This document shows, one piece after another, positions 10,592 through 36,990 of a stretch of DNA of 64,000 nt. Each line of letters begins with the position of its first letter. Position 1 is the stretch's first letter. The stretch is from positions 1 through 64,000 of the forward strand of contig CAIUAN010000045.1 in NCBI GenBank assembly GCA_903897145.1, written 5' to 3'. The position numbers were made by a program, and so were the translations under genes. Source of the DNA: an uncultured Bacteroidia bacterium. GTDB lineage: Bacteria; Bacteroidota; Bacteroidia; Bacteroidales; Prolixibacteraceae. Under the pieces are notes generated by a model, which saw only the letters and a program-made list of their open reading frames with translations, had not been told where the DNA came from and did not search any database.

Positions 10592-11854
10592 CTAGAATCT
10601 TGTGTTTTTACCGCCAATATCACCATGCAAATGGATCAAAATAAAAGCTAGCAGCACCAACACGGCTAGTATACATAGGGTATACTTTAGCCAATTTTTC
10701 GATTCAACATTTGCGGTAGGGATCTCAAAGAAAGATGGTCTATTTTGGCGCAATAACAGTATAACAACGATAAAATTTAGCACATATAGGTGATGATTGA
10801 GCATAAAATTACCTCTAAAAGCTCCGGTAAGACCATAACTAAGAAAAATATAGGTCGCCCAATAACCTAAAAACATTTGTAAGATTGAGCTCCTACTAAT
10901 TTCACCTTTTGACTGAATGGTTTTAGTCCATCCCAAAAGTGCTAAAGCAAAAAGAATAAGAACAGCTATCGAGCTTCCAACCAATGAAGCTGCTGGAAGA
11001 CTTTCGGCATTAGGGGCACTAAAAAACACCTGAATCAAATTAGAATTAGAGAAGACCAAGTATGGGATTAAGAGAAACACCACAAAATAGGCGAATTTAT
11101 TTTGCCATTTCTGAGGTGCGGTCGTTTCTTCTGGCCACACAGAACTAAATACACCATATGCCATACCTGAGCCACCAAAGAAGCCGATACTATATTCCAT
11201 GACGTTCCACATATTAAATTGAATGGCTAAGATATCTCCCAATATCTGGAGTACATTTCCAAAGCCAAAGCCAAACCCTGCTCCCATTGCAGCAAAATAA
11301 GCCACGCGCAGAGGTGCTTTGTGTTCGTTGCGCACCATATACCAGATCATGGCCAGTCCAGCACCTAAGCAAACGGCCCAGGCTTCGGAGCGAGGCGGAG
11401 TCATAAGAAAGCCAAAAGCTTGGATCAATAAATAATATCCTACAATACCACCTGCAACCATCTCAGCCATTAAGCTATTCCAGTACACAGGCTTTTTCTT
11501 TGAGGAGTCCAAGGTTAGTCCTACAAGGCCACCCCCAAGGAGTCCAAAGAGTCCTCCAATCACAAATAGCATAACTAAGCCATAAGCGGCATTTACAAAG
11601 TCGGTACTTCTTCCATAGCCTACAACGATGCCGTAGCTAATCATTCCGCATCCGCCCCAGCCAACCATCGAAGCTAACGCGACAGGCAAAATCTTGGCAA
11701 ACCAATCTTTCCGTTGCGCCACTAAAACTAATGCCAAGGCTCCAATACCAGCAGCCCAAGAAGCCCCAGGCTCATGTCCAAATTGTCCGCGAATAGCCCA
11801 CGCAGTAGCAAACGACATTCCGACAATTAGAATACTAATCCATTGTTTTTTCAT
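10592..11854 (-). CDS. polytopic inner-membrane protein of unknown function
   Basis: This 420-residue protein is almost entirely hydrophobic, with about 11-12 predicted membrane segments and many Gly-rich helices (for example FVIGGLFGLLGGGLVGLTLD, AAMGAGFGFGFGNVLQILGD). The N-terminus contains the conserved-looking AWAIRGQFGHEPGASWAAG. No transporter family motif is recognised with certainty. Its neighbours (SusCD operon on one side, GH31 and NicO genes on the other) suggest a role linked to carbohydrate or ion uptake, but this is only context. It is transcribed alone or from beyond repeat block A, and has its own terminator. Confidence 0.6.
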   Translation of the reverse strand: MKKQWISILIVGMSFATAWAIRGQFGHEPGASWAAGIGALALVLVAQRKDWFAKILPVALASMVGWGGCGMISYGIVVGYGRSTDFVNAAYGLVMLFVIGGLFGLLGGGLVGLTLDSSKKKPVYWNSLMAEMVAGGIVGYYLLIQAFGFLMTPPRSEAWAVCLGAGLAMIWYMVRNEHKAPLRVAYFAAMGAGFGFGFGNVLQILGDILAIQFNMWNVMEYSIGFFGGSGMAYGVFSSVWPEETTAPQKWQNKFAYFVVFLLIPYLVFSNSNLIQVFFSAPNAESLPAASLVGSSIAVLILFALALLGWTKTIQSKGEISRSSILQMFLGYWATYIFLSYGLTGAFRGNFMLNHHLYVLNFIVVILLLRQNRPSFFEIPTANVESKNWLKYTLCILAVLVLLAFILIHLHGDIGGKNTRF

Positions 11855-11910: not shown

Positions 11911-12047
11911 AAGAAAAAAAGAAACACAATAGGGCACAATAGAGGAACAAACACAATAGACACAATAGATTCTAATGTGCTTTTCTATTGTGTTCTATTG
12001 TGTCTATTGTGGTAAAAAGGAAAAAACACAATAGGCACAATAGGCAA
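11911..12047 (+). repeat. hairpin repeat block A (CACAATAGA family)
   Basis: The left arm holds two tandem CACAATAGA 9-mers at 11952-11969. The right arm holds three copies of the reverse complement TCTATTGTG at 11984-12011, with one extra T after the first. The loop contains TTCTAATGTG at 11970-11979. Arms 11952-11969 and 11994-12011 pair perfectly over 18 bp. Degenerate CACAATAGG units and A-rich spacers flank the hairpin. The block lies immediately downstream of the GxxExxY gene stop, and block B lies on its other side. Confidence 0.85.
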
Positions 12048-12050
12048 AGG

Positions 12051-12464
12051 TTAGTATCCGCTAGGCAAAGAAGCATGAAGCTCATTCACCATAGTTTTTT
12101 GACCTTCCTTGAAAATGTTGGTACAATTAAAATTAATCAACACACCTTTGGGTTTAGATAAAAGATTTAGGTACGTCAATAGTTGGGCTTCATGAATTGG
12201 CATTAGCCTCTCCACTGCTTTTACCTCAACAATTATCAAGTTATCGACCAATAAATCAAAACGCAGATCGCAATCTAGTTTAAGACCTCTAAAAATCAGC
12301 GGAACTCGTTGCTGAGATGAGACAAGTATCCCTTCTTCGATTAACAAATGCCCCAAGCATCTTTCATAAATACTCTCAAGCAGTCCAGGGCCCAATTCTT
12401 TATGTACCTCAATTGCTGCTCCTAGAATAACATAGGTTAGGTCATTTAGATATTTCTGTGTCAT
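12051..12464 (-). CDS. GxxExxY family protein (PD-(D/E)xK nuclease-like)
   Basis: This 137-residue protein carries the family signature G27-P-G-L-L-E30-S-I-Y33 after an IEVHKELGPG helix. A nuclease-type core follows: D70 in LRFDLLVDN, then E80-V-K82 in IIVEVKAVE, and a final EAQLLTYL helix. This matches the PD-(D/E)xK arrangement with all candidate catalytic residues present, at the usual family length (about 125-140 residues). GxxExxY proteins are widespread but their function is not established. Here the gene stands alone between repeat blocks A and B (3 bp and about 36 bp from the gene ends) among unrelated membrane and sugar genes, which suggests a functional or mobility link with the repeats. 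It has no secretion signal, so it is cytoplasmic. Confidence 0.85.
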   Translation of the reverse strand: MTQKYLNDLTYVILGAAIEVHKELGPGLLESIYERCLGHLLIEEGILVSSQQRVPLIFRGLKLDCDLRFDLLVDNLIIVEVKAVERLMPIHEAQLLTYLNLLSKPKGVLINFNCTNIFKEGQKTMVNELHASLPSGY

Positions 12465-12500
12465 GACTTAACAATTTACGATAATCTAATGAGGTATTGA

Positions 12501-12938
12501 AAAAAAAGAACCAAATAGAAAAAAGAAACACAATATGACACATAGGGTTCTAATGTGCTTTTCTATTGTGATCTATTGTGCCTATGTGGTGAAAAAAAAG
12601 AGAAACACAATAGACACAATAGGACACATAGGTTTCTAATGTGGTGAAAAAGAAAAAAGAAACAGTAGAACACAATAGGAAAAGAAACACAATAGAGACA
12701 ATAGATTCTAATGTGCTTTCTATGTGGCCTATGTGCCTATGTGGTGAAAAAAAAGAGAAACACAATAGACACAATAGGAAAAGAAACACAATAGACACAA
12801 TAGATTCTAATGTGCTTTCTAATGTGGCCTATGTGCCTAGTGTGGTGAAAGAAAAAAAGAAACACAATAGACACAATAGACACAATAGATTCTAATGTGC
12901 TTTTCTATTGTGATCTATTGTGCCTATGTGGTGAAAAA
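12501..12938 (+). repeat. hairpin repeat block B (CACAATAGA family, multiple units)
   Basis: About 440 bp of tandem but irregular units. Each has an A-rich spacer (AAAAAAGAGAAA), a left arm of CACAATAGA 9-mers, a loop with TTCTAATGTG (copies at 12548, 12634, 12706, 12805, 12817, 12890), a right arm of TCTATTGTG or CCTATGTGG 9-mers, and GTGGTGAAAA. The last unit is clearest: three CACAATAGA at 12863-12889 face TCTATTGTG at 12904-12912 and 12914-12922. Spacing between loop copies varies (12-99 bp). All units have the same orientation as block A. Open frames across this block are made of the repeat and are not genes. Confidence 0.9.
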
Positions 12939-12945
12939 AGTGCTT

Positions 12946-13698
12946 TTATCCTATGGGATGAATGATCCACAAGATTCCAATTGCTATCGATAAAATAGCT
13001 CCAGTCAAAGAAAACCGTTTCAAAAACAACTCTTTGCCCCCTGCTTCAGCACGATGAGCTAAAAGACCTAACGAGAAAGCAAAAGTCATCATCGTAAAAA
13101 TCGTTCCGATCGCAAAGGCTACAATATAAATAACGGACGACCAGAAACTTGGGAATGCCAAAGAAGGGAGTAAAGCAAACAGATGACTAAATCCAGCCAA
13201 GCCATGAACCGTACCAATAAAAAAAGCAGAGAGTACGTTCTGATTCATGTTTACAGCATGCGAATGACCGTGCTCCTGCAGTTCGTTTTCAAGAAGAGGA
13301 CTAGCATGTGAATGAGAATGAACATGAGCATACAAATTTGGAGATGTATGAAAATGAACATGAGGACGATCACCATGCGAATGCTTTGAATACCCTCTTT
13401 TTAGTGCCCATATCCCAATGCAGACAAGTAATATCCCAATGATGGTTTCGCTATATTTGGAGATACTATCGACAGGTAAAAACTCTTTAAAGACTAGAAA
13501 TAGAGCTCCAATTAGCAGCATTCCAACAGTATGCCCGAAGCCCCAGGAAAAACCGATGACCCATGATTTCTTTCGACTATCAATCGCTAGAGGGGTAACA
13601 GCAGCAAGATGATCAGGTCCAGTGGCGACATGCGCAACACTCGCAAGAAATCCAGTTAATACAGTTAGCACTTCACTAAAATTTAGATTTATGTGCAC
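12946..13698 (-). CDS. NicO/HupE-type nickel-cobalt (divalent metal) transporter
   Basis: A membrane protein of about 250 residues. The likely start is the GTG at 13698 (VHINLNFSEVLTVL), because the 29 in-frame codons upstream look non-coding (Cys-rich) and there is no earlier ATG. Helix 1 carries the histidine motif VAHVATGPDHLAAV. Helix 2 has GFSWGFGHTVGMLLIG. Between helices 3 and 4 lies a long His-rich cytoplasmic or periplasmic loop (HSHGDRPHVHFH..., HVHSHSH, HGHSHA), and then HGLAGFSHLFALLPS. These features fit the NicO/UreH superfamily of Ni/Co exporters or importers. It lies 92 bp after the GH31 stop and ends a few bases before repeat block B. No urease or hydrogenase gene is nearby, so metal and direction of transport are uncertain. 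Confidence 0.75.
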   Translation of the reverse strand: MHINLNFSEVLTVLTGFLASVAHVATGPDHLAAVTPLAIDSRKKSWVIGFSWGFGHTVGMLLIGALFLVFKEFLPVDSISKYSETIIGILLVCIGIWALKRGYSKHSHGDRPHVHFHTSPNLYAHVHSHSHASPLLENELQEHGHSHAVNMNQNVLSAFFIGTVHGLAGFSHLFALLPSLAFPSFWSSVIYIVAFAIGTIFTMMTFAFSLGLLAHRAEAGGKELFLKRFSLTGAILSIAIGILWIIHPIG

Positions 13699-13790
13699 GC
13701 CAAAAGCGCAATAAATTAAGGGGCAAATTACAACTTTAAATTGGCTAGAACAAAGAACATCTCTGCACCCTACCAATTGGCACACTCAGA

Positions 13791-36777: not shown

Positions 36778-36990
36778 AAAAGAGAAACACAATAGGGTTT
36801 CTAATGTGAACTATGTGCCTAATGTGGTAAAAAAAGAAACACAATAGGACACAGTAGGCAAAACACAGTAGACACAGTAGATTCTAATGTGCTTTCTATT
36901 GTGAACTATGTGCCTATGTGGTGAAAAAAAGAGAAAAAACACAGTAGAGCACAATAGGAAAAACACAATAGACACAGTAGGACAAATAGA
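36776..36990 (+). repeat. hairpin repeat block C (CACAATAGA family, dispersed copy)
   Basis: About 215 bp with the same unit design and orientation as blocks A and B. A-rich spacers are present, CACAGTAGA 9-mers lie at 36864-36881 (A-to-G variant of CACAATAGA), loop decamers TTCTAATGTG lie at 36799 and 36882, and the right arm has TCTATTGTG at 36895-36903 followed by CCTATGTGG. It fills the gap between the unknown gene at 35815 and the first GH2 gene, with no GxxExxY gene beside it. The remaining bases to 37047 are AT-rich. Confidence 0.88.

Follow-up and report, generated by a model that had tools for sequence, protein, structure and literature searches.

GxxExxY nuclease genes bracketed by iterated short words: a candidate mobile element with gene-less derivatives in Bacteroidota and other phyla

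A gene of the GxxExxY family lies between two blocks of iterated short words in the 64-kb stretch of DNA analysed here (the window). Comparable loci in other genomes are likewise bracketed by words, in many cases in inverted orientation, the words co-vary with the protein, arrays of them are dispersed without the gene, and one such unit separates two genes that are neighbours in other species. On balance, we favour the reading that this is a mobile or selfish element whose sole protein, a PD-(D/E)XK nuclease, acts on its own iterated ends. On a broader proposition we are evenly divided, namely that GxxExxY genes with iterated inverted ends constitute a new class of mobile element over several phyla, with a lone PD-(D/E)XK nuclease replacing the transposase, and that its gene-less hairpin derivatives make up a large unexplained class of intergenic repeats in Bacteroidota and other phyla.

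The GxxExxY gene of the window (12051–12464, minus strand) is intact and encodes a protein of 137 amino acids with a PD-(D/E)XK nuclease fold. Its downstream side carries Block A (11925–12043), with ten CACAATAG/CTATTGTG-type words and a perfect 18-bp inverted repeat (arms 11952–11969 and 11994–12011), and its upstream side Block B (12539–12931), with 29 words and four 73-nt units, neither block being assigned to a strand. In both, CACAATAG, CTATTGTG and CTATGTG words surround a TTCTAATGTG core. The flanking repeats reported in a preliminary description of this DNA are real: CACAATAGA has 22 matches in the window against a mean of 0.59 (maximum 3) in shuffled sequence, and 18 of the 22 fall within 11935–12922, in the two blocks. 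The perfect inverted repeat of Block A was recovered from that description, as were its same-orientation units, now five 73-nt units that all lie on the plus strand: one in Block A (11946–12018) and four on the other side of the gene (12524–12596, 12682–12754, 12781–12853 and 12866–12938, with 73, 63, 68 and 88% identity to the reference unit, respectively). Its view of the blocks as hairpins held in part. Compared with shuffles, the DNA of two of the five block stretches folds strongly (the unit in Block A, z −6.8, and 12856–12938, which includes the last unit, z −7.5); the second, third and fourth units fold weakly (z −1.7, −2.9 and −1.7), and a strict hairpin view was rejected because of this poor folding in three of five stretches. 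The blocks are better described as iterated 8–9-nt words in both orientations. A second cluster of the same repeat family (36788–36980, plus strand) has no GxxExxY gene, and of two stretches folded there one was strong (z −5.0) and the other not (z −0.95). A known RNA family was considered for the repeats and rejected, as Rfam gave six microRNA models only, far below their gathering scores. The gene is adjoined by a membrane-protein gene (10592–11854, sub-threshold Pfam match) and a DsbD_2-family gene (12946–13785), and neither of these two Pfam-profiled neighbours is a cas gene. The DsbD_2-family gene probably starts farther downstream than the listed GTG, because the same reading meets a stop at codon 25 in each of the two congeners. 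By reading of its open reading frame, a SusC-like receptor gene is also present in the window, which points to Bacteroidota.

The protein is a member of the GxxExxY/PDDEXK_3 family (TIGR04256, PF13366), exceeding the curated cut-offs of both profiles (PF13366: E 6e-37, 126.9 bits, cut-off 22; TIGR04256: E 9e-38, 129.3 bits, cut-off 35) with the motif and a D...ExK core present. The G27/E30/Y33 motif and the D70, E80 and K82 core singled out in the preliminary description are invariant in an alignment of 24 sequences, together with G25, Y98, N111 and F112, and no conserved cysteine occurs among the invariant or nearly invariant columns of that alignment. At E 0.001, PF13366 was the only Pfam match, with no transposase family. 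The predicted structure has a pLDDT of 96.3 and its best Foldseek matches are SSO0001, LHK-Exo and lambda exonuclease (E 0.02–0.3, none ≤0.001). A sequence relative among solved structures was sought and discarded, the ten matches (best E 0.065) including none that was convincing. PADLOC-DB yielded no strong match to a known anti-phage defence family, the best being a weak match to Cas4 (E 2.4e-4, 19 bits). In two congeners the gene (97–99% identity) and both blocks are found at the same place, and the protein is under strong purifying selection in the genus, with dN/dS among the three congeners of 0.026–0.061 against 0.12–0.14 for the adjoining DsbD_2 reading frame. The same genome holds a second GxxExxY gene (G000:C36:18413-18769; L002, L041), 33% identical, which has no adjoining array of the window's words and is a decayed or different-clade copy.

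Flanks of GxxExxY genes were compared in three samples: an order set of 90 loci plus the window (30 loci and a further 60 regions, one with two genes, the latter picked mostly by score order and leaving out partial, broken and a number of intact matches), a named set, for which loci were sought by protein patterns alone and the best 80 of 587 kept, and a genus set of 27 congeneric loci. Flanks spanned 0–600 bp from the ends of the open reading frame (500 bp from the match in the genus set); in control families the starting point was the domain match and the first 60 bp were omitted. The enrichment of flank repeats anticipated in the preliminary description was observed across genomes. By local alignment, a repeat shared between upstream and downstream flanks was present in 59/86 order-set loci, compared with 3/74 at 900–1500 bp, in 46/75 loci of the named set (best 80 of 587), compared with 1/60 at that distance, and in 17/26 genus-set loci; no shared repeat was detected at E 1e-3 in 27/86, 29/75 and 9/26 loci, respectively. 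Among control families, SmpB gave 1/30 near and 0/26 farther out, ParE 8/29 (all direct) and 2/21, and RAYT, the positive control, 20/28 and 1/19. The eight ParE-type genes concerned have direct repeats of 21–193 nt (L193, L201, L202, L206, L214, L216, L217 and L219). An excess of repeated 8-mers was likewise found in the flanks of 30/89 GxxExxY, 16/30 RAYT, 5/30 SmpB and 2/30 ParE genes, and in 19/80 near versus 3/79 farther flanks of the named set (best 80 of 587).

The words themselves show the same distribution. The density of CTYTGYG in the named set (best 80 of 587) was approximately ninefold higher near the gene than far from it (3.74 versus 0.42 per kb; 338 versus 33 occurrences), and the word occurred at least three times in 39/80 near and 3/80 far flanks. 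Five of seven re-lettered control motifs gave ratios of 0.8–2.3, CTYAGYG gave 3.7 and CYTTGYG 6, the last having words in common with CTYTGYG (e.g. CTTTGTG). The 39 loci include, by record title, Planctomycetota, Anaerolineae, Methylobacter, Psychromonas, Hydrogenedentota, Omnitrophota and Ignavibacteria, although many titles in the named set are those of metagenome bins and some may be wrong. Any word class was present at least three times in the flanks of 44/90 GxxExxY genes of the order set and 41/80 of the named set (best 80 of 587), compared with 3/30 for Y1 transposase, 1/30 for SmpB and 6/30 for ParE; the classes were chosen on the order set, and only CTYTGYG in the named set is independent of that choice. 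That the words are an artefact of chance or composition in AT-rich intergenic DNA, for which nothing speaks beyond their low complexity, is scarcely credible against the shuffle control, the farther-flank controls and the control families.

Many loci are simpler than the separate hairpins of the preliminary description, with one inverted iterated end on each side of the gene. In the named set (best 80 of 587), words lying within 120 nt were inverted in 50 loci versus 12 with the opposite sense, and the outer tip GYGGTT in 37 versus 3. Inverted CTYTGYG words on both flanks, within 150 nt, were found in 45/80 loci of the named set (best 80 of 587; opposite sense 8/80) and in 15/91 of the order set (opposite 5/91), where the bias was 24 versus 8 at 120 nt and 23 versus 12 at 300 nt (p 0.09). 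In the order set no inverted bias was found for ATYYGYG (18 versus 20), and that of GYGGTT was not significant (11 versus 5; 17 versus 18 at 300 nt). An inverted alignment was obtained for 19 of 20 loci picked as inverted cases, with identical ends of 44/44 nt in L247 and 27/27 nt in L252. By manual count, ACC[AG]C is present in 15 of the 19 left ends. The gene begins 1–84 nt inside one end and stops 1–48 nt before the other in 17 of these loci, L289 and L226 being the exceptions. Inspection by eye of the ends of the 20 picked loci revealed no target-site duplication. Best flank alignments are direct in 35/59 order-set loci and 16/46 of the named set (best 80 of 587), direct copies dominating long arrays, and the blocks of the window itself are arrays, unlike the compact inverted-end loci. 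Among seven plasmid records, those from Bacteroides and Bernardetia have clean inverted ends; at E 1e-3 a repeat is shared by the two flanks in L457, L458, L462 and L463, L459 passes by virtue of apparent coding matches alone but has 11-nt inverted ends by eye, and L464 and L465 do not pass this test.

An occupied and an apparently empty site could be compared in one case, between species. In Sphingomonas parapaucimobilis a GxxExxY gene separates fabD from fabG, two genes annotated 30 nt apart in Rhizobium indigoferae; S. paeninsulae and Methylobacterium bullatum have matching sequence with a similarly short fabD–fabG gap and no unit, a comparison made by sequence since these records list fabD only or nothing. 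The sites of the three other species contain no words. The inverted ends abutting the gene, together with this case, suggest that gene and ends travel together. Eight contigs, titled mostly Flavobacterium or Flavobacteriaceae, have a GxxExxY gene at a shared locus with matching flanks (L236, L243, L249, L255, L264, L267, L270 and L282), apparently reflecting long vertical inheritance despite inverted ends. L236, titled Rhizobium sp. Q54, is probably mis-binned, because it is syntenic with the Flavobacterium loci. Such stability, with the common locus and low dN/dS (0.03–0.06) in the three congeners and the weak Cas4 resemblance, would be consistent with a domesticated host function, in which nuclease and words form a resident system (with a role in, e.g., hairpin resolution during replication, autoregulation or defence), the words serving as binding sites and not as mobile DNA. 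We consider this improbable given the patchy presence of the family in the order (TIGR04256 matches in 53/99 genomes, 51 above the cut-off), the up to 12 matches per genome (fragments counted), the occurrence of broken copies, and the paralogs within one genome that have different words.

The repeat also co-varies with the protein, as the preliminary description had predicted. When 91 proteins are placed on a tree, the words follow the clades, with CTATGTG/CTATTGTG in the window's clade and CTCTGTG/CTTTGTG/CTCTGCG, CTTTGCG/CTTAGCG, ATCCGTG/ATCAGTG/ATCTGTG or ATTCGTG in others, the GNGFQEVIYQRA clade being mostly without such words. Mantel tests of word similarity against tree distance over pairs from different genomes gave r −0.246 for the 91 loci, beyond all 5000 permutations, and r −0.16 with the 40 bp beside the gene omitted; the relation was absent in flanks at 900–1500 bp (r +0.04). 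For the genus (26 loci plus the window), r was −0.34, or −0.26 with the 60 bp beside the match omitted (p 0.0004), and +0.11 farther out. Within the genus, loci whose protein has 59–60% identity to that of the window have CTATGTG (three loci), those at 52–54% CTCCGTG (two loci), those at 48% CTCTGCG (two of three), several at 40–46% CTTTGTG or CTCTGTG, and four at 34–40% ATTCGTG or ATCTGTG, with exceptions such as L438 (47% identity), which has ATCTGCG, and some loci with no clear word. The window's word is inverted on both sides of relatives of its clade in other families (L103, L081 and L125, with close variants in L112) and absent from L120 of the same clade, and two paralogs in one genome, G113, have CTATGTG 33 and 0 times and ATTCGTG 0 and 9 times. 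Since the co-variation holds across hosts and between paralogs of one host, it is most simply explained by an action of the protein on the words.

Whole-genome counts, which include words beside genes and use clade lists from the 91-protein tree (fetched genes only), showed at least three CTCTGTG pairs in 20/53 genomes with the gene family and 2/46 without (p 6e-5), and at least three ATTCGTG pairs in 14/53 and 6/46 (p 0.13, not significant). CTCTGTG was associated with genomes holding its own clade (9/13 versus 11/40, p 0.0095; 7/17 versus 13/36 for the ATTCGTG clade), and ATTCGTG with those holding its own (9/17 versus 5/36, p 0.0043; 1/13 versus 13/40 for the CTCTGTG clade). A passenger role for the gene, with a RAYT or some other enzyme moving or making the words around it, is very improbable, even if 40 of 44 tested genomes also have Y1 transposase matches and the hairpins of one genome (G047) lie inside a longer MITE-like unit: words track the GxxExxY clade across hosts, and word classes occur at least three times in the flanks of 3/30 Y1 transposase genes compared with 44/90 and 41/80 GxxExxY genes. 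Ownership of the words by RAYTs of the same genome was rejected on the latter count and because the one RAYT locus inspected in the window's genome (L153) lacks the window's words, though it has three CTYTGYG; no match to the loop was found on the contigs that hold the three best RAYT matches of this genome.

Copies of the repeat occur elsewhere in the same and related genomes, again in line with the preliminary description. The TTCTAATGTG core has 29 matches in the window's genome (G000; 2.8 Mb, 69 contigs) versus 7 for the pattern read backwards, and 55 in each of two congeners versus 2 and 8. The matches in G000 include eleven clustered places, which reduce to approximately nine clusters because two pairs of contig ends each align to one congener cluster (L036/L039 to L408, L037/L040 to L406). 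Among these clusters a GxxExxY neighbour was found only at the gene-side block pair. For each of the nine a counterpart exists in one or both congeners (in both for seven), with differing lengths, in a comparison covering the congener stretches that hold the TTCTAATGTG core. As gene and arrays keep their positions, movement in the genus is not recent, and activity there is expansion and contraction in place, not recent jumping. At the 36.8-kb site, both congeners (L409, L414) have two clusters with an amidohydrolase-like gene (by frame reading) between them, and G000 has a single cluster and lacks this gene, so arrays appear to be involved in gene gain or loss. Four contigs of G000 (C38, C39, C42 and C54) end inside repeat clusters; arrays therefore break the assembly and may be under-counted. 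Another genome, G047 (L332–L351), contains MITE-like elements of approximately 150 bp with ends TTAATTAGTGTCTGTC...GACAGACACTAATTAA and an CACGAATT/AATTCGTG hairpin inside; complete hairpins number 12 in 20 stretches, and L351 holds a GxxExxY remnant.

Array length varies between very close copies: in G076, contigs L427 and L424 differ by what we calculate to be three 79-bp array units beside GxxExxY, and being near-identical over the stretch they are uninformative on movement, array length aside. Such change of length at fixed places would be expected of a homing-type selfish gene, whose nuclease cuts gene-less arrays so that the gene is copied into them by recombination repair from an array that bears it; the words would then serve as target and homology arm, expanding by slippage or recombination without being transposed. 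PD-(D/E)XK homing nucleases exist, and the long arrays with direct copies on both sides (35/59 best alignments in the order set) are as expected, because under homing the gene sits inside a pre-existing tandem array. We nevertheless hold homing to be unlikely and favour a transposition-type reading, because many units are compact, with one inverted terminal sequence per side and no outer array; the word-less fabD–fabG sites of other species also speak against it.

Under the transposition-type reading, the GxxExxY gene and the iterated words on both sides would be one genetic unit, which in its simplest form would be a compact, insertion-sequence-like element of approximately 450–550 bp with a single gene between inverted terminal sequences. 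Each terminal sequence would consist of two to four iterated 7–9-nt words, the outer part usually with ACC[AG]C, and the gene would encode a Cas4/lambda-exonuclease-like PD-(D/E)XK nuclease. This nuclease most likely recognises its own words and cuts or nicks DNA there, which would promote their copying, insertion or expansion, and the gene-less clusters would be its non-autonomous derivatives, in the way that REPINs relate to RAYTs and MITEs to insertion sequences. Word recognition, cutting and transposition by the enzyme are what we infer from these patterns. Several observations count against this explanation: the loci without a shared repeat, the GNGFQEVIYQRA clade and the array-less C36 gene; the restriction of the inverted sense to CTYTGYG in the order set; the lack of a target-site duplication by eye and the shared Flavobacteriaceae locus; and words in some genomes without a listed gene, as well as a word class in 6/30 ParE flanks. 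The hairpins of G047, lying inside a longer MITE-like repeat, could also be moved by another transposase.

The pairing of enzyme and ends shows the defining features of none of the mobile-element families tested. The predicted fold resembles those of Cas4/lambda-exonuclease-like nucleases (SSO0001, LHK-Exo and lambda exonuclease, E 0.02–0.3). SSO0001 is a Cas4, and Cas4 has iron-sulphur cysteines, whereas the GxxExxY protein has no invariant cysteine and is shorter (137 amino acids versus 203 for the SSO0001 chain). Insertion sequences and MITEs are alike in having a single gene between inverted ends that abut it and in having gene-less versions, but here there is no Pfam transposase match, the ends are iterated words and no target-site duplication was seen by eye; some insertion sequence families also lack one. 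Rpn (transposase_31, PF04754) nucleases share the PD-(D/E)XK fold with GxxExxY but belong to a different Pfam family. In the available text on them, Rpn is a recombination-promoting nuclease studied for DNA mobilisation (PMC5350276), and Rpn proteins are described as toxin–antitoxin systems combating phage, with no cognate repeats mentioned there (PMC10327210).

The RAYT/REPIN system (REPtron) likewise pairs a small gene for DNA processing with short palindromic repeats, which lie on its flanks and are also dispersed without it, and the likeness drawn in the preliminary description is apt, RAYT (Y1 transposase) genes scoring 20/28 in the same upstream/downstream flank test; taken as a whole, the interpretation offered there is partly supported. 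The GxxExxY enzyme differs in being a PD-(D/E)XK nuclease with no HUH/Y1 match and with ends of iterated 7–9-nt words, and visual inspection of a sample of words and ends revealed neither GTAG nor CGTC as a constant tag. A RAYT is a tyrosine (HUH) transposase, REPs carry GTAG or CGTC tags, and CGTC-tagged palindromes also occur in Bacteroidetes and Chlorobi, apparently without a dedicated transposase (PMC3733652; further RAYT/REP work in PMC6006769 and PMC8049555). What would be new is the pairing of the GxxExxY enzyme family with iterated ends, the type of relation resembling RAYT/REPIN. It gives a widespread family a testable role and abundant short repeats a cause, and since several nuclease clades naturally come with a cognate word of their own, swapping offers a test of specificity. 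If it is true that a nuclease alone moves DNA, this would be new chemistry for a small mobile element; if the nuclease homes, it would be a new repeat-based homing system.

Literature on repeats, mobile elements and the fold, mostly in PMC with few subscription journals and preprints and judged by title and the start of the abstract, did not describe the association, and no stated function for the GxxExxY family was found in the literature searched. Among the papers listed for the repeat strings, titles point to animal, plant, human-disease and virus work, apparently chance or primer matches. In the available portions of the sources, one program placed a GxxExxY-domain gene next to a reverse transcriptase, at a position for which a second program gave cas4 (PMC8934634), GxxExxY is an entry in a viral gene list (PMC12085832), and the TIGR04256, PF13366 and PDDEXK_3 accessions are mentioned in microalgae work. 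Assignment to a phage gene family was rejected, with no match in PHROGs and no relative in a single-protein scan of viral contigs; the A2 scan of viral contigs yielded one relative, L460, with a clean inverted end of 48 nt.
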